The translations under genes and the position numbers were made by a program. A stretch of DNA of 64,000 nucleotides from Archaeoglobus sulfaticallidus PM70-1 (GTDB lineage Archaea; Halobacteriota; Archaeoglobi; Archaeoglobales; Archaeoglobaceae), in NCBI RefSeq assembly GCF_000385565.1, contig NC_021169.1, positions 1 to 64,000 on the forward strand, written 5' to 3'. Below the pieces are notes generated by a model. That model searched no databases. It was not told the DNA's origin and saw only the letters and a list, made by a program, of their open reading frames with translations. This document shows positions 33,617-47,775 of the stretch, in pieces (positions within the stretch are counted from its first letter, which is position 1; every line of letters begins with the position of its first letter).

Positions 33617-33632
33617 CTATGAGGTGACAAGA

Positions 33633-34727
33633 ATGGAGTTCATTCCACAAGTAGAGCCATATATAAGTAAAGGGGAAATAAAAGCAGTTGTTGAATACTT
33701 GAAGTCAGGAGGTTGGCTTACTGAATTTAAAAAAACTGAGGAATTCGAGGAAAGAATCTGTGAACTTCTTAATATTGACTATGCAGTAGTTGTAACGAGT
33801 GGGACTGCCGCATTGTATTTATCTCTTTTAGCGTGTGGTATTAGCAAGGGAGATAAAGTTATAGTCCCAAATTTTACTATGATAGCTACCCCTAACGCTG
33901 TAAAGTGGACTGGTGCAGATGTTATTTTGGTAGATATTGAAAAAGATACTTTGTGTCTTGACATTAAAAAAATTGAAAAAATAGATAGAAGTGTAAAGGC
34001 ATTAATATATGTGTCTCTAAATGGTAGAAGTGGAAATATGGACAAAGTAGTAAAATTCTGTTATGAAAACGACATCATATTAATTGAAGACTCGTGTCAA
34101 GCATTTATGTCAACATGGAACAACAAGTACCTCGGAACGTTTGGAATCATTGGAGTGTATTCCCTTACGCCCCATAAACTAATAACAACAGGACAAGGTG
34201 GCATAATAGTAACAAACGATGAGAGCATATACAAAAAAATAAAAAAACTAAAGGATTTTTGTCGTGTAAAACCAGGAGTAGACCTGCATGAAGATATAGG
34301 GTATAACTTTAAATTTACAGATCTCCAAGCAGTCATAGGTTTAGAACAGTTAAAATCGATAAAATGGAGAGTCAAAAGAAAAAAGGAAATATACAAGTTT
34401 TACTACAACAGTTTAAAAAATGTGGAGGAAATAAAGTTCATTCCAACAGATTTGAATCAAACTGTCCCTTGGTTTATAGACATATTAGTTGAGGAAAGTA
34501 TACGAGATGAGTTAATAAACTACCTTAAAACAAAAAACATAGGCTCAAGACCTTTCTACCCTGCTATAAATACTCAAAAACCATATAAGGTATATAAAGG
34601 ACATTTCGACATTTCAAATACAATTTCTAAGCAGGGGTTGTGGTTACCTTCTTCACTGGGATTAAAGTATGAGGAATTAGACTACATAGTTAATAACGTG
34701 AGAAATTTCTTTAGTCACAGACACTAA
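33633..34727 (+). CDS. DegT/DnrJ/EryC1/StrS aminotransferase
   Basis: 364-residue PLP-dependent sugar aminotransferase. The internal aldimine lysine is K182 (SLTPHKLITTGQGG); VTSGTAALYLSL is the phosphate-binding region and IEDSCQA carries the cofactor Asp. With gmd upstream it could aminate GDP-4-keto-6-deoxymannose to GDP-perosamine; this is inference. ATG 33633 is preceded by GAGGTGA. A broken relative of its C-terminus is at 45969-46190. Confidence 0.9.
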   Translation: MEFIPQVEPYISKGEIKAVVEYLKSGGWLTEFKKTEEFEERICELLNIDYAVVVTSGTAALYLSLLACGISKGDKVIVPNFTMIATPNAVKWTGADVILVDIEKDTLCLDIKKIEKIDRSVKALIYVSLNGRSGNMDKVVKFCYENDIILIEDSCQAFMSTWNNKYLGTFGIIGVYSLTPHKLITTGQGGIIVTNDESIYKKIKKLKDFCRVKPGVDLHEDIGYNFKFTDLQAVIGLEQLKSIKWRVKRKKEIYKFYYNSLKNVEEIKFIPTDLNQTVPWFIDILVEESIRDELINYLKTKNIGSRPFYPAINTQKPYKVYKGHFDISNTISKQGLWLPSSLGLKYEELDYIVNNVRNFFSHRH

Positions 34728-39684: not shown

Positions 39685-40837
39685 TTATCCATAATACTTA
39701 CTAAATAATTTGTCATATATTTTTATTAGGTGATCCACTACAACTTTCCAATCATAATAACGCCTTGCAACCCTACGACAATTATGGTATGGAGTGGGAT
39801 CCTCAAGTATCCCAGCAATACATTTTGCTACATCTTCCGGACTCTGTGGAATCTTCCCCACTTTTTCAACATCATCTTGAGGAAAATGTCGTAGACTCGG
39901 ACTAACAACTGGTGTGTTGCAAGCTAATGCTTCTATAGGTGCCATACCTATTCCCCCAGGAGCAACAACATTTTCTTCGAATGATGCTGTTACAAAGACA
40001 TCGGCAGCGTTATAATAAGGAACTAATTGTTCTTGTGGAATGACGGGTATTATCCTCGCTCCGGCAGCTCTTGCGTCCTTTATGAGTGGATCATTTTGAT
40101 GGTACCCAATCATAATCAGTTCAACATCATACTTCTTTTTTAATGTCTTAAACGCTTGTATGATTATATCTGCGCCTTTTAACTTATAAAGTCTACCAAC
40201 ATATAATATTACTTTCTTTTGCGAAGGGAGCCTAACGATCTCTTTAGCTCTTTCTTTGTTTAACGGTTTAAACCTATCGAAGTCAACGCCAACAATTGTT
40301 AACTGTAAGTCTATTCGCTTATCATCGCCTAATATGCGAGAGAAATATTCTTTTTCTGCTTGAGTATCTACAAGAAGGCAATCCACATTTTTAAAAGCTA
40401 TCCTTGCCAACAAATCTATTCTGTCAATCAGGCGCATTAACGGATTGTAACGTCCACCATGTGATGTTATCACGAGTGGCATATTCTTAGAGAGACAGGC
40501 AATGGGCTTATACATAAAGAGAAAAGGATTGTGTAGATGGATCAAAGCTTCTTTTGTTTTTTATCTCTTTTAACAAGGGTAGAGAAATCTCAAATTCTTT
40601 CAAACCTCTAAAGGGTATATAGAATGAAGGGAATACCTTGTGAACTATTCCATTCTTTTGACACACTTGAACTTTCTTAAAAGTTCTTTCTGGCTGCCAA
40701 CATTCTATTTCATATTTTTTTGTTTGTCTAATGATTTGTTTAGCGGTTACGATGTGCCATTCATCCTCAAAAGATGTGACGTCGATATTCAATGCAAGCT
40801 TGGATAATGAATAACCCATTATTTGTATTACTTTCAT
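39685..40837 (-). pseudogene. Glycosyltransferase family 4 gene split by a frameshift
   Basis: The N-terminal frame (MKVIQIMGYSLSKLALNIDV, to LLKEIKNKR) and the C-terminal frame (LIHLHNPFLFMYKPIACLSK, to FSKYYG) fit one GT4 protein of about 383 residues. They are joined by removing one A from the A6 run near 40557-40562 (EIKTKEALIHLHNPF). The second half keeps YVGRLYKLKGADI and FEENVVAPGGIGMAPIEAL. It could be a mutation, a programmed shift or a homopolymer sequencing error. Confidence 0.75.
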
Positions 40838-40853
40838 ATCAATACCCCAATGG

Positions 40854-42313
40854 TTAGATTTTGTCAAAAGATCTCAGTCTCTTTATTTTCTCTTTAATTT
40901 TTGCTTTTTCAAACTTTTTGTTTTCAATATGTTCTACCCATTTGGATAATGTGTCTCTGAGCTCCATAGCGATCTCATAGTCATTTTCAATAATATTGTT
41001 TTCTTCTTCCGGGTCTTCTTTTAAGTTATATAATTCTTCAAAGCCACCATGCACAATGCCGCAACTTCTGCATACAACACTTTTTTCTGATAACGCTTGA
41101 ATGTATTTATATTTGTCTGTTCTAATTGCTCGTTTATATTGATAAAAAGTTTCTTCAGCACAAATGAATGAATGCAATTGTTTAATCTCATTGCGTAATA
41201 AAGGTAGCAAACTCCTTCCATCAAAGTCATATCCTTCAGTAGGTATATCTAAAATATCTAGAATGGTTGGAACCAAATCAAAGTGTTGAACAAAACTTTT
41301 TATTTTTTATGCTCTCCAATCTCAGGATATAAAAAAATAAGAGGTATATGAATATTGACATCATATAAACCATGATGGTCTACAAAAATGCCATGTTCAA
41401 ATAAGCTTTCACCATGATCTGCAGTCAATATGATGAATGTATCGTCTAATATCTTCTTTTTTTCAAGGTGCTCTATTAATCTTCCTATCTCATGGTCTAC
41501 AAAGTATATAGCCTCATCATATCTGGCTATAAAGTCAGAAACAGTTTTAATCTCTCTGCTTACTATGTGTCTTAAGAGACCCTCCTTTACTGATGGTAAG
41601 GTGGTTGGGTATGTAATTTGATTGAGTATCTCCTCTTCACTTTGAATATTATCGTCGATGCTAAATTTCCCAATATACTCTTTAGGAGGATTGTATTGGT
41701 GAACATCCCAATAATGAATAAATAGAAAGAATTTTTTACCTAAATTTTGATCTATAAACCTTATAGCCTTATTGGTAAGAATTTTAGCGTCATCATAAAT
41801 GACAGGCTCGCTTTCCCCTCTTATCTTCAAGTATAAAACTTTCAAAAATTTATAGATCGGAGAAGGAAATTTACTTGCTGTTCTTTTTATTCGTTTAATT
41901 ATACCTCCTACTGCTGCTGATGACCCAGATGGACCAATGTAAAAATCATATCCTCTTTTGTGCCATCTACCAAGTATATCAAATGCACATGTAACATATC
42001 CATAAGACTTTAAAATTTCAGGTAGGAAATATGTACCACTTTCTTTAAGCTTATTTATTTCACTTTTTTGAACTAATGTTCCATGATGAATGATTCCATG
42101 CGAGAGAATATACTTTCCCGAGAAAATGGTAGTAATGGATGGATCAGTAGTATTAGTACATGAATACGCATTTTCGAATAATATTCCTTTTTTAGCAATG
42201 TTGTCTATATTTGGACTTGTTAATTTTGAATAACCATAGCAAGATAAATTCCTAGCCCTAAGAGCATCAATAACTATAAATATTATATTCGGCCTCACAA
42301 TATCATCCTTCAT
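40854..42313 (-). pseudogene. Alkaline phosphatase superfamily (sulfatase-like) gene split by a frameshift
   Basis: Frame one covers about 338 residues (PNIIFIVIDALRARNLSCYG, TADHGESLFEHG) and ends in HKK-TAA. Frame two resumes KSFVQHFDLVPTILDILDIP and runs to the C-terminus. One extra A in the run near 41300-41310 would join them. The formylglycine motif CxPSR is absent: the nucleophile position is T56 (TTDPSITT). It is therefore unlikely to be a classical sulfatase and may act on phosphate esters or be a phospho-transferase on glycans. Confidence 0.7.
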
Positions 42314-42355
42314 ACTTAAACCTCTCACATTATAGAAATATCTCGAATTGACAAA

Positions 42356-43276
42356 TTACATCATACATAACTCGGCAACTTCTAAAACCTTTAATCCATC
42401 TTCCCCACTTACTGGAACTGGTTTATCCTTAATAATAGATTCCACAAAGGCGGATAACTCTAGTTTTAGTGGCTCATCGTATGGAACTTTAAGCTCTTTT
42501 ACAATGTAAGAGTCATCTCCATGTCTTACGTATTCGCGTACTTTTTGTTCAATCAACCACCCCCTTATAAATTTATCAGCAGTTGCAATACTTATCTCTC
42601 TAACCTTAAAAGGTGTTAACCAGTTCACATTTATGTTTACCAACACACCATTTTCCATTTTAAGCATTATTAGAGCTGTATCTTCTTTGTTATATAGAGA
42701 GCTCGATATAAAGGAATATATCTCTACAGGTTCAGATTCGGTAAGATACCTTGCCAAATCTATATCATGGGTCGCTAAATCGAGGACAACACCTACATCT
42801 TTTATTCTTGGTGGTAAGGGTCCAACCCTAACTGTGCTTATTGATATTACATCGGCATGCGCTATCCTCTCTTTTATCACTTCTACCACTGGGTTGAATC
42901 GCTCAACATGTCCAACCATAAGCTTTACACTTCTCTTCTTAGCTGCTTCAATTATTTCTAAAGCGCTCTTTACGCTATCTGCTATTGGTTTCTCTACAAG
43001 GACATTTACTCCAGCGTTTATCGCATCTAAAGCTACTTTCCCGTGAAAGGTAGTTGGAACTGCTATACTCACGGCATCTATGCGTGAATTGAGCAACTCT
43101 TTGTAACTCATGAAGGCCCTCGTTCCGTATAATCTTGAGACTTCTTCAACCCTTTCTTTATCCACGTCAGCTATGCCAACGAGCTCGCAACCTAGCTCTT
43201 TGTATACTCTTACATGGTTTTTTCCCATTACACCTACTCCAATTACTCCAACTCTTATGTTTTCGAGACCTCTCAT
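42356..43276 (-). CDS. Gfo/Idh/MocA dehydrogenase, GnnA-like
   Basis: 306-residue NAD(P)-dependent sugar dehydrogenase. The Rossmann motif is VGVIGVGVMGKNHV (about 9-22); EKP is at 95-97, GHVERFNP at 122-129 and the catalytic-type motif DLATHDID at 166-173. Last gene of a four-gene coupled operon with an LpxA-like acyltransferase and a sugar aminotransferase. By analogy with bacterial GnnA it may oxidise UDP-GlcNAc at C3. WlbA-type dehydrogenases of UDP-GlcNAcA are the alternative. Confidence 0.88.
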   Translation of the reverse strand: MRGLENIRVGVIGVGVMGKNHVRVYKELGCELVGIADVDKERVEEVSRLYGTRAFMSYKELLNSRIDAVSIAVPTTFHGKVALDAINAGVNVLVEKPIADSVKSALEIIEAAKKRSVKLMVGHVERFNPVVEVIKERIAHADVISISTVRVGPLPPRIKDVGVVLDLATHDIDLARYLTESEPVEIYSFISSSLYNKEDTALIMLKMENGVLVNINVNWLTPFKVREISIATADKFIRGWLIEQKVREYVRHGDDSYIVKELKVPYDEPLKLELSAFVESIIKDKPVPVSGEDGLKVLEVAELCMM

Positions 43277-44040
43277 GATATATCAACCTCAGCAATTTTC
43301 CTATTAGAGTTTCTCGTATTCAAAAAGTCAATAAGGTGTTTTTTAACCCTTAGGCTAGTAATTTTATCTATATCTAGAAATTCCTTGTAGTACTTTTTAA
43401 TTTCCTCGATCTCGCTTGTGTTAAATCCTGCCCTTTCTAGTCCAACTTCATTTATCTTATAACATATGAAGTTTTTATATACTACAAATGGCGGAACATC
43501 TTTAACAACTATTGATCCCATTCCTATCATTGAGTAAGCTCCCAGCGTGGTGTATTGATGTATGCACGTATTTAAACCAGTTATAACATTATCCTTAATG
43601 GTGCTGTGACCACCAATTTGGGTATTATTTGATAGAGTAACATTGTTACCTAGTATAACGTCGTGACCTAAGTGCACGTATGCTAAGAGGAAGCAATTAT
43701 CGCCTATGACAGTCTCACCTTCTGTGGGAAGATGTACAGTGACGAACTCTCGGATGATATTATTATTTCCTATTACAATTTTACCTGTTTCTGGTAGTTT
43801 ACTTGAATAGAAATCTCTATGCTGTGGAGGAGCACCTATGACGGTATATGGTCCTATTACATTATTACCTCCTATTTCCACTTCTCCCACGATCATGCAT
43901 CCTGGCAGAATGAGTGTGGAGCTCTTGATCTCCGCATCTTTGCATATTAAGCTCCCATTAACCCATTCTAAATCTTTAGAATCTATGTGAAACAACCTTC
44001 TGAGTGTATCGAGCACTTCAGGCCTTAATGTCCATCTCAT
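43273..44040 (-). CDS. LpxA-like UDP-sugar acyltransferase
   Basis: 255 residues, the full length of bacterial LpxA. Residues 1-195 are a left-handed beta-helix of hexapeptide repeats; 196-255 are the LpxA-type helical tail (EVGLERAGF). The active-site residues of E. coli LpxA line up: YVHLGHDV gives H123 and H126 (the latter matching catalytic H125), with GGHSTI H145, IHQYTT H161 and R203. N-acetyltransferases of the WlbB type are shorter and lack the tail. It should transfer an acyl group from an acyl carrier to a UDP-aminosugar. Starts and ends in ATGA overlaps. Confidence 0.88.
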   Translation of the reverse strand: MRWTLRPEVLDTLRRLFHIDSKDLEWVNGSLICKDAEIKSSTLILPGCMIVGEVEIGGNNVIGPYTVIGAPPQHRDFYSSKLPETGKIVIGNNNIIREFVTVHLPTEGETVIGDNCFLLAYVHLGHDVILGNNVTLSNNTQIGGHSTIKDNVITGLNTCIHQYTTLGAYSMIGMGSIVVKDVPPFVVYKNFICYKINEVGLERAGFNTSEIEEIKKYYKEFLDIDKITSLRVKKHLIDFLNTRNSNRKIAEVDIS

Positions 44041-44804
44041 ATATACCAGCCTCCATCTACGATGATGACTTGACCTGTTATATAGTTAGCATCATCAGAA
44101 GCTAAAAATACCACCACTTTTGAGATCTCATCTGGAGTTGCAAATCTGCCTAGTGGTATTCTTTCCAATATTTGCTTTTTTATTCTGTTTGGAATAGCTT
44201 TGAGCATACCAGTCTCTACAAATCCTGGAGCTACCGCATTAACCAATATTCCCTTTCTTGCGAGTTCTTTGGCTAAAGATTTGGTAAATCCAATTACACC
44301 TGCTTTTGATGCCGCATAATTCGTTTGACCAAAATTTCCTGCTAACCCAATAACTGAAGAGATATTTACAATTTTTCCACCCCCCTGTTTCTCCATGTAG
44401 GGTATTACAGCCTTAGTACAGTTGAAAACTCCAGTAAGATTTGTGTTGATTACATCGTCCCATTCTTCCTTTTCCATTTTTTTAATAGTTCTATCTCTGA
44501 TAATCCCTGCATTATTAACAAGTATATCTATCCTCCCAAGTTTCTTTATAACATGTTCTACCATATGTGCGACTTCATTAAAATTTTTTACATCTACTTG
44601 AATTGTTATAGCACGTCTGCCCATATCTTCTATCATATCTGCCACTTCTCTAGCTTTTTCTTTTTTTTCTAAATAGCTCACTACAACATCCGAACCCTCT
44701 CTCGCTAAAGATAGAGCTACTGCCCTTCCAATTCCTCTTGAACTCCCAGTAACCAATGCAACCTTTCCTCTTAACCTCAAGTTTTCACGCATGGCGTATA
44801 TCAT
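44037..44804 (-). CDS. fabG: FabG-like 3-oxoacyl reductase (SDR)
   Basis: 255-residue classical short-chain dehydrogenase. TGSSRGIGRAVA is the NADP(H) motif, NNAGI follows, then the catalytic Ser in NISSVIGLAG and YAASK. The C-terminal ITGQVIIVDGGWYI is typical of FabG. It would reduce 3-oxoacyl-ACP or -CoA to the (R)-3-hydroxyacyl form, the usual LpxA donor. GGAGGTGA touches the start; an ATG four codons later is possible. Coupled to lpxA by ATGA. Confidence 0.9.
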   Translation of the reverse strand: MIYAMRENLRLRGKVALVTGSSRGIGRAVALSLAREGSDVVVSYLEKKEKAREVADMIEDMGRRAITIQVDVKNFNEVAHMVEHVIKKLGRIDILVNNAGIIRDRTIKKMEKEEWDDVINTNLTGVFNCTKAVIPYMEKQGGGKIVNISSVIGLAGNFGQTNYAASKAGVIGFTKSLAKELARKGILVNAVAPGFVETGMLKAIPNRIKKQILERIPLGRFATPDEISKVVVFLASDDANYITGQVIIVDGGWYI

Positions 44805-45879
44805 TCACCTCCATCCATTCATTTATAACATCGCATACACGTTTTAGCTGTTCTTCGGTTAGAGTAGGGTGCATAGGTATTGATAAAACTTCTCCACAAG
44901 CCCTCTCTGCTTCAGGCAAACTGCGTCTGCAGAACCTCATAAATTTTGGCTGTCTATGAAGTGGAATTGGATAGTAGATTCCATACCCTATGTCATTCCT
45001 CTTCAGATGTTCGATTAGCCCCTCTCTATTTCTAACTCTTATCGTATAGAGATTAAATACATGCCTTACATTATTTGCAACAAAGGTTTTTCCCTTAATT
45101 TTTAAATTTTTATTATAATATTCCGCATTACTTATTCTCTTTTGAATAAAACCTTCAAGTTTTTCAAGTTGAACAATGCCGATAGCTGCTGCTATGTCTG
45201 TCATTCTATAATTATACCCAAGTATTTCATGAATGTATTTTACGCGCTGTCCATGATTTCTTATCATTCTTGCCCTTTCCGCTATTCTCTCGTCGTTTGT
45301 TACGATCATTCCTCCCTCACCAGTAGTTATACTCTTAGTTGGATAGAAGCTGAAGCAAGCAACATCTCCAAAAGTTCCAACCTTTTTCCCGTGATACTCC
45401 GCCCCTAAGGCCTGAGCACAATCTTCTATTACCCAGAGGTTATATTTTTCAGCAACATTTATAATTTTATTGATTTCACATGGTTGTCCATATAGATGAA
45501 CAGGTATGATTGCCTTCGTCCTTTCTGTTATCCTATGTTCTATCTGGCTTGGTTCAATATTGTAAGTCTTTGGATCTATATCTACGAAAACGGGTTTTGC
45601 ACCCTGCATTAAAATACAAGATGCTGTTGAAACGAAAGAGAAAGTTGTTGTTATGACTTCATCTCCCTTTCCAATTCCGAGAGAGGAGAGGGCTACATGT
45701 AGGGCAGAAGTCCCAGAATTTACTGCTATTGCATATTCGGTCCCAACATATTGGGCAAATTTCTCTTCAAATGTGGCTACTCGATCTCCTTGTGATAACC
45801 TGCCCGAACGTAAAACCTCTACTACCGCTTTTATTTCCTCTTCACCAATCACTGGTTGAGAAATTGGAATGTGTTTCAA
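44785..45879 (-). CDS. DegT/DnrJ/EryC1/StrS aminotransferase, GnnB-like
   Basis: About 364 residues, first gene of the cassette. NSGTSALHVALSSLGIG is the phosphate loop, IEDCAQALGAEYHG the cofactor Asp region and K182 (FYPTKSITTGEGG) the PLP lysine. It would aminate a keto-sugar; with the dehydrogenase and acyltransferase, a 3-keto-UDP-GlcNAc is the best guess (inference). TTG 45879 (MKHIPISQPVIGEEE) follows GGGGGG and matches the family start; ATG 45921 is the alternative. Overlaps fabG by 20 bases. Confidence 0.9.
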   Translation of the reverse strand: MKHIPISQPVIGEEEIKAVVEVLRSGRLSQGDRVATFEEKFAQYVGTEYAIAVNSGTSALHVALSSLGIGKGDEVITTTFSFVSTASCILMQGAKPVFVDIDPKTYNIEPSQIEHRITERTKAIIPVHLYGQPCEINKIINVAEKYNLWVIEDCAQALGAEYHGKKVGTFGDVACFSFYPTKSITTGEGGMIVTNDERIAERARMIRNHGQRVKYIHEILGYNYRMTDIAAAIGIVQLEKLEGFIQKRISNAEYYNKNLKIKGKTFVANNVRHVFNLYTIRVRNREGLIEHLKRNDIGYGIYYPIPLHRQPKFMRFCRRSLPEAERACGEVLSIPMHPTLTEEQLKRVCDVINEWMEVNDIRHA

Positions 45880-45968
45880 TTCATGTCCCCCCTTCTTTAA
45901 AGAAGTTTCTGATCTCTGCATACTCCTTCTATATCTTCATTATTTAAAAATAACGATGAAGATTACCA

Positions 45969-46395: not shown

Positions 46396-47775
46396 TCACA
46401 TTTCCAGTATAAATCTAACTTGTCTTGTCGTTACTACTAAAGCTGCGATTCCCGTTCCTATAAGCCATCCTATTCCCACACCTACTAGACCGATTCTGGT
46501 CATTAATAAGTAGCTCATAACAATAGTAGATGTAGCCATTATCACATATGTAACTAATACATTTCCTACTTTTCTCCTCACTCTCTCAACAGATACATAG
46601 GTTTCGATGATGCTAATTGGAACTGCTGAGATGATGAAAATTGATAGCAGTTTAAAGGCATTTTCAGAATATGCTCTCCCAAAGAGCAACAAGATTTTAT
46701 CACCAAAAAGGAAGATAAGAATTGACAGTGGAATAAGTAGAATAAACGAGAGCTTTATTGACCTAATAGCGTTGATGCGAAGTTTTTCGGGTACATTTGA
46801 ACCTTCTGCGAATAAGGATGTTGCTATTGCACATGGGACCGTAAATACCATCATTGATGCAGTAAATGCTATGGTAAAGTAAGCATTAGCCTCAGCTCCT
46901 AGTATACTTAATACCATTAGTGGTAAAATAAAGTTTGAGATTCCTCCAAAAATACCAGCAACATAATTTGCAAAAGAGTAGTGTAGCATGTCATTAATGA
47001 CCTTCTTTTTAATTGTAGGTAATGGAGAATAACCTGGAAGAATTATCCTTATGAGAACATTACCAAGTATAACTGCTAAGAGTAATGCCGAACCATAGGC
47101 TAAAAAGATGCCCAACACACCTAAAGAAATCAAAACTATAGCTAAAGGAATTTTTAGAACATTTGCTATTATCTGCTGCAAAAAGTTAAACTTGACAGAG
47201 CGAAATGCTATAAACACATACCTTTGCATAAAGAGAATTGAACCAATGATAGCAAAAAACGTAAAAAGTAGGGAAAAAACCATATTTTCCTTGAGGAATA
47301 ATAATTTTGGCATCCAGAGAGTAATACCAGAAATGAAAATTATTGATAACATCATTGAAATTAATCCTGACATGGTAAGACATGAGTTTATTGTTCCGTT
47401 TTTATCTTCATCTTCTGGTAAGAATCTTACCAAGCCTAAGTTAAAACCTAAAAGTGAAAAAGAGGAAAGCATTCCTACAGTGGAGATCAAAGCACTAGCT
47501 AAGCCTATCTCCGCTGGTGAATAAATCCTCGCTATCACAATCCAATAAATGAGGCCAAGTGATGCCGATACAACGCTTCCTGCCATTAAATAGTAGGCAT
47601 TTTCATAGAGAGGAGTACGTGCGTGCTCTCTAAGTTTTTCTTTAGAAGTGATAATTCTTGTTGTCTGTATAAACAAATCCCTAATGTGTAGAATAATCCT
47701 TTGAAGATTACTCTTAATGTTCCAGTGAGTTTCTTCTTTTCTTCCTACATCCTCCAGCCTCATATCATCTTTCAT
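46396..47775 (-). CDS. Oligosaccharide flippase (Wzx/MATE-like)
   Basis: 459-residue membrane protein of the polysaccharide transporter family. A charged N-terminus of about 60 residues precedes 12-14 hydrophobic segments, starting YLMAGSVVSASLGLIYWIVI with the typical ARIYSPAEIGLASALIS motif. It should flip lipid-linked glycan units across the membrane for export or attachment to S-layer proteins. It reads on the same strand as the LpxA cassette, with about 500 bases of debris between. Confidence 0.92.
   Translation of the reverse strand: MKDDMRLEDVGRKEETHWNIKSNLQRIILHIRDLFIQTTRIITSKEKLREHARTPLYENAYYLMAGSVVSASLGLIYWIVIARIYSPAEIGLASALISTVGMLSSFSLLGFNLGLVRFLPEDEDKNGTINSCLTMSGLISMMLSIIFISGITLWMPKLLFLKENMVFSLLFTFFAIIGSILFMQRYVFIAFRSVKFNFLQQIIANVLKIPLAIVLISLGVLGIFLAYGSALLLAVILGNVLIRIILPGYSPLPTIKKKVINDMLHYSFANYVAGIFGGISNFILPLMVLSILGAEANAYFTIAFTASMMVFTVPCAIATSLFAEGSNVPEKLRINAIRSIKLSFILLIPLSILIFLFGDKILLLFGRAYSENAFKLLSIFIISAVPISIIETYVSVERVRRKVGNVLVTYVIMATSTIVMSYLLMTRIGLVGVGIGWLIGTGIAALVVTTRQVRFILEM

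Follow-up and report, generated by a model that had tools for sequence, protein, structure and literature searches.

We characterized a cluster of four overlapping genes in the archaeon Archaeoglobus sulfaticallidus PM70-1, which is a variant of the known archaeal cassette for UDP-GlcNAc3NAc, i.e. UDP-N-acetylglucosamine (UDP-GlcNAc) with an acetylated amine at C3. The cluster lies in the first 64,000 nucleotides of contig NC_021169.1, hereafter called the window, and it encodes a DegT aminotransferase, a FabG-like short-chain dehydrogenase/reductase (SDR), an LpxA-like acyltransferase and a Gfo/Idh dehydrogenase. We see about an even chance that this cassette mediates the coenzyme A (CoA)-dependent synthesis of a 3-N-short-acyl UDP-GlcNAc for a surface glycan, with (R)-3-hydroxybutyryl as the most likely acyl group.

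Gene organization and proposed pathway

The cassette comprises the following genes, in their order of transcription:
44785..45921, minus strand: DegT/DnrJ/EryC1 aminotransferase, 378 aa (Pfam PF01041, E=1.3e-138); putative GnnB-like role, conversion of 3-keto to 3-amino UDP-GlcNAc
44037..44804, minus strand: FabG-like SDR, 255 aa (TIGR01830, 331 bits); proposed to generate the acyl donor as an R-specific 3-oxoacyl-CoA reductase
43273..44040, minus strand: LpxA-like left-handed beta-helix acyltransferase, 255 aa (NF003657, 191 bits); proposed 3-N-acyltransferase acting on UDP-GlcNAc3N
42356..43276, minus strand: Gfo/Idh dehydrogenase, 306 aa (NF040723, E=8e-101); proposed UDP-GlcNAc 3-dehydrogenase

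All four open reading frames (ORFs) are intact, and successive ones overlap by 20, 4 and 4 bp. This agrees with an earlier interpretation of the DNA made before any database search (hereafter the sequence-only reading), which had described a four-gene operon linked by ATGA or longer overlaps; its family calls for all four proteins were borne out by Pfam and NCBIfam profile searches.

In the pathway whose substrates, order of steps, acyl group and product destination we infer here, the Gfo/Idh enzyme would oxidise C3 of UDP-GlcNAc to the 3-keto form, which the DegT enzyme would transaminate to UDP-GlcNAc3N. The SDR would reduce acetoacetyl-CoA, or another short 3-oxoacyl-CoA, to an (R)-3-hydroxyacyl-CoA, and the LpxA-like enzyme would use this thioester to N-acylate the C3 amine of UDP-GlcNAc3N. 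(R)-3-hydroxybutyryl is the most likely substituent because it is the group that the SDR would generate from acetoacetyl-CoA.

An archaeal amino sugar cassette with a putatively different acyl module

By far the best family for the Gfo/Idh protein is NF040723 (archaeal UDP-GlcNAc 3-dehydrogenase), at 337 bits. This is below the cut-off of 450, which the other Archaeoglobaceae members, at ~420-441 bits, likewise fail to reach. At a threshold of 1e-60, the family is present in 89 of 295 genomes of the phylum, many of which encode in its vicinity a DegT protein, a WlbB-type hexapeptide acetyltransferase (~210-240 aa) and a UDP-sugar 6-dehydrogenase. The window Gfo/Idh protein shares 41-47% identity with the archaeal cassette members and 29-37% with its counterparts in lipid A loci; the corresponding values for the DegT protein are mostly 51-56% with the DegTs of archaeal GlcNAc3NAc cassettes and 42-47% with those at the GnnB position of lipid A loci. 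In quick trees, the window Gfo/Idh protein is left out of a starred clade (98) of the lipid A Gfo/Idhs and has archaeal cassette members in the rows nearest to it, and the lipid A DegTs similarly form a clade without the window DegT (94, not starred). These identities and trees led us to reject a lipid A GnnA/GnnB origin of the two enzymes, and on sequence grounds we assign both to the archaeal UDP-GlcNAc3N(Ac) cassettes. The likeness to bacterial GnnA/GnnB drawn in the sequence-only reading is therefore not retained, whereas the route to UDP-GlcNAc3N that it proposed for the pair is supported by their families and by the archaeal cassette context.

In the archaeal UDP-GlcNAc3NAc cassette, genes of these same two lineages are adjacent and co-directional, as in the window, and are accompanied by a WlbB-type acetyltransferase gene and usually by a 6-dehydrogenase gene; the window harbours instead the genes for the LpxA-like acyltransferase and the FabG-like SDR. 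Genome-wide, no WlbB-type acetyltransferase was found, the query yielding only partial matches of at most 36 bits, so that the LpxA-like enzyme is the obvious candidate for the acylation step and, together with the SDR, appears to replace the missing acetyltransferase. The comparison with the archaeal cassettes thus supports an N-acylation of UDP-GlcNAc3N by a member of the LpxA superfamily, as had been proposed in the sequence-only reading.

The LpxA-like acyltransferase

The LpxA-like protein (ACYLTRANSFERASE, 43273..44040) has LpxA as its best match in both sequence (E=9e-37 with an LpxA of the Protein Data Bank, PDB) and fold. This match speaks for the lipid-A-like entry proposed in the sequence-only reading, by which the transfer of a long (R)-3-hydroxyacyl chain to UDP-GlcNAc3N would give a fatty-acylated sugar in an archaeon. 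The four histidines H122, H125, H144 and H160 of Escherichia coli LpxA, which align with H123, H126, H145 and H161 of the window protein, are all conserved, in line with that proposal. In the predicted structure (predicted local distance difference test score, pLDDT, of 89.8), the fold matches LpxA first and Pcryo_0615 (PDB 8e62) second. The C-terminal helical tail is present as well, although it is shorter than that of LpxA, and the confidence of its model is moderate (pLDDT about 63-81). The description of a full-length LpxA-like protein needs to be amended in one respect, since the first beta-helix coil of LpxA is missing and a short N-terminal helix stands in its place.

Several lines of evidence argue against the identification of this protein as an LpxA. 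Its scores remain under both LpxA equivalog cut-offs (TIGR01852, 184 vs 231 bits; NF003657, 191 vs 226 bits), while lipid A LpxAs from related loci (L003, L007) reach 321-384 bits on LpxA models. In two careful trees, all 43-44 lipid A LpxAs form a clade that excludes the window protein (support 98/91 and 95/92), and the second tree places the latter (99/88) at the base of a group that includes Pcryo_0615, relatives from viruses, a protein from SAR11 and products of 3-amino-6-deoxysugar-like loci. The archaeal WlbB-type cassette acetyltransferases and the window protein belong to separate clades in both trees, for which reason a WlbB-type identity was also rejected. The sequence-only reading had held that grouping with acetyltransferases such as WlbB would speak against a lipid-A-like function; the protein does not join the WlbB type, and it leans toward the N-acetyltransferase group of Pcryo_0615, a position qualified by the topology test described below.

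The acyl pocket bears more directly on chain length. In E. coli numbering, the window protein has Leu155, Asn156, Met173 and Tyr187, which are all of the N-acyltransferase type. Positions 155 and 173 line the acyl groove of LpxA. All 43 lipid A LpxAs compared have Gly or Ala at 155, and none has Leu, whereas the residue at 155 is bulky in 18 of 18 sugar N-acyltransferases. The Leu and Met of the window protein thus differ from the small residue at 155 and usual Gly at 173 of an open groove. Met173 as an argument by itself was dropped as weak, because the alignment shows Met at this position in Pseudomonas aeruginosa LpxA too, and position 155 carries the pocket argument. P. aeruginosa LpxA is a C10 enzyme, with a 3-hydroxydecanoyl product entry (5dg3), and in this respect it speaks for a lipid-A-like function.

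We also computed two-profile log-odds over 152 columns, opposing lipid A LpxAs to sugar N-acyltransferases (n=18), with the members scored left-out. The only member of the latter group with a stated biochemical role is Pcryo_0615 (from its PDB title), the others being assigned by similarity and context. The window protein scores +30, compared with -244 to -116 for the left-out lipid A LpxAs and +34 to +229 for the left-out N-acyltransferases. By this measure, it sits at the edge of the N-acyltransferase group, below all 18 members and well clear of the lipid A LpxAs. LpxA was rejected as its identity on score and pocket, the tree position being supportive without being decisive. Pocket and family evidence makes a long fatty acid on the sugar unlikely.

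LpxA-like and Pcryo_0615-like proteins were also noted elsewhere. A SAR11 (Pelagibacteraceae) genome encodes a 198-aa LpxA-like protein outside a lipid A operon (locus L048, 7998-8594), which shares the motifs 'IREF.TVHLPT' and 'YSMIGMG' with the window protein. Fourteen IMG/VR viral contigs (L121-L134) code for short hexapeptide proteins with 46-54% identity to Pcryo_0615, which suggests that these are phage-borne sugar N-acyltransferases.

The FabG-like SDR and the proposed acyl donor

The SDR exceeds the FabG cut-off (TIGR01830, 331.1 vs 297.75 bits) and falls just under that of acetoacetyl-CoA reductases (TIGR01829, 298.6 vs 302.1 bits). Its identity with FabG and PhaB enzymes amounts to 46-53%, the catalytic Ser/Tyr/Lys being kept, and it is the sole FabG-like SDR of the genome. 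At the positions of R129 and R172, the two arginines of E. coli FabG that dock acyl carrier protein (ACP), the window SDR has Gly and Lys, and PhaB has Glu and Ser; Bacillus velezensis FabG has Arg at both. A genome-wide family search found no ACP (PF00550), LpxC (PF03331) or LpxB (PF02684), and its positive controls gave matches. The lack of LpxC and ACP genes reported for the window thus extends to the whole genome and to LpxB, contrary to what a lipid-A-like function would call for.

The genome encodes thiolases and 3-hydroxyacyl-CoA dehydrogenases, and 3-oxoacyl-CoAs should therefore be available. We count this, the lack of ACP and the substituted arginines of the SDR in favour of our proposal. 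The family to which these dehydrogenases belong is (S)-specific, so that the LpxA-like enzyme would depend on a separate (R)-specific reductase for its donor.

Another Archaeoglobaceae genome (L112, 2-2268) harbours a gene for a FabG-like SDR, 46% identical to that of the window, directly after those for a thiolase and a ChsH2-type zinc-ribbon protein. This set is possibly a 3-hydroxyacyl-CoA forming unit.

Alternative functions of the cassette

The 3-hydroxybutyryl assignment draws on known chemistry. In Acinetobacter capsule loci, a two-gene exchange (psaD/E for psaG/H) is reported to change the acetyl group of an amino sugar to 3-hydroxybutanoyl (PMC6586298), and the O antigens of Hafnia and E. 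coli are known to contain 3-amino sugars that carry (R)-3-hydroxybutanoyl (PMC4869667). Nevertheless, several points weigh against our proposal. The gene at the position of the reported 3-hydroxybutanoyl transferase in E. coli O103 is annotated as a member of the GNAT family rather than as a hexapeptide enzyme, so that the precedent holds by analogy. No sequence feature distinguishes an acetyl from a 3-hydroxybutyryl transferase, and the substrate of the SDR could be a sugar. The approximately unbiased (AU) test did not reject a tree in which the LpxA-like protein is held with the lipid A LpxAs (p=0.55); its exact place is thus not fixed, and a kinship with lipid A LpxA is compatible with this result. 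Finally, among the genomes searched, the four-gene set was found in this one alone, so that its linkage is not supported by conservation.

The main alternative, possible but less probable, is that the pathway is the same and that the LpxA-like enzyme is an acetyl-CoA-dependent N-acetyltransferase of the Pcryo_0615 kind yielding UDP-GlcNAc3NAc, the SDR serving another step or another sugar. The N-acetyltransferase Pcryo_0615 is LpxA-like and acts in the pathway of a 2,3-diacetamido sugar; it has in common with the window protein the fold, a 3-amino sugar pathway, a bulky residue 155 and Met173, and the two-profile score puts the window protein on its side. In addition, acetylation by a WlbB-type enzyme is the norm in archaeal cassettes. 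However, Pcryo_0615 is shorter (189 aa) and devoid of H122 and R204, whereas the window protein retains both, along with Q73 and the helical tail of LpxA, not all of which Pcryo_0615 has. Acetyl transfer would also leave the operonic FabG-like SDR without a role. We count the inclusion of this gene in the operon, through its overlaps of 20 and 4 bp, in favour of a hydroxyacyl group, as the reductase would be superfluous for acetyl transfer.

That the SDR is instead a sugar-nucleotide reductase or an epimerase partner, the four genes making a different 3-acylamino sugar, appears doubtful to us. SDRs are common in sugar-nucleotide clusters, and the locus codes for several sugar-modifying enzymes, but the score of this SDR is above the FabG equivalog cut-off, its identity with FabG and PhaB is 46-53%, and the nearby SDRs of the sugar type belong to the extended epimerase family.

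In the bacterial GnnA/GnnB/LpxA branch of lipid A synthesis, the three kinds of reaction and the gene families are those proposed for the cassette, and the order LpxA-Gfo/Idh-DegT occurs in Geobacter and other loci (L005, L007, L010, L011). Nevertheless, given the divergent acyltransferase with its bulky pocket, the other lineage of its Gfo/Idh and DegT partners and the missing ACP, LpxC and LpxB, we regard as very improbable the lipid-A-like product of the sequence-only reading. In that case, the LpxA homologue of this archaeon would attach a 3-hydroxyacyl chain, possibly medium or long, to a UDP-amino sugar, and a fatty-acylated sugar would become part of a glycan or a lipid.

Genomic setting

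The genome of A. sulfaticallidus PM70-1 is a single contig of 2,076,931 bp with an overall guanine-plus-cytosine (GC) content of 43.24% (PMC3703591). The cassette is part of a low-GC island (window 16000-55000; 31-40% GC over ~16-55 kb) that switches strand near 36-38 kb and harbours genes for many glycosyltransferases, a UDP-GlcNAc 2-epimerase, epimerases/dehydratases, a second DegT, a sulfatase-like protein and a Wzx-type flippase. This region is a surface-glycan locus. The following gene is just upstream of the cassette, on the same strand, and likely forms a transcription unit apart from it:
46396..47775, minus strand: Wzx/Polysacc_synt-type flippase (Pfam PF01943, E=2e-16)

The second DegT aminotransferase (33624-34724, plus strand) is nearest to LegC/PseC-type models, below their cut-offs. 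The sulfatase-like gene (40854-42328, minus strand) is split between an ORF at 41300-42328 and another, in a different frame, at 40854-41276, which might reflect a homopolymer error, as the genome was sequenced by 454, or a real frameshift. The adjoining gene for a family 4 (GT4) glycosyltransferase (39685-40867, minus strand) is also in two overlapping ORFs in different frames.

Distribution and significance

At a threshold of 1e-15, a search of 393 sampled genomes of the phylum found no relative of the LpxA-like protein in the other 392. It is present in 1 of 59 genomes of the class, where the only other matches are three proteins of WlbB-type size at 38 bits or less, and five congeners lack the gene. 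Searches of plasmid and phage collections returned only LpxA-like matches with less than 60% identity.

To our knowledge, a pathway for 3-N-(3-hydroxyacyl) amino sugars has so far not been described in archaea. If our proposal is correct, the acyl module of an archaeal cassette would have been exchanged as a unit, an LpxA-like enzyme and a reductase taking the place of the WlbB-type acetyltransferase. The LpxA-like protein of this ACP-less organism would then offer a testable intermediate form, linking lipid A LpxA with the sugar N-acyltransferases for short acyl groups, and would bear on how LpxA switched its acyl donor and chain length.

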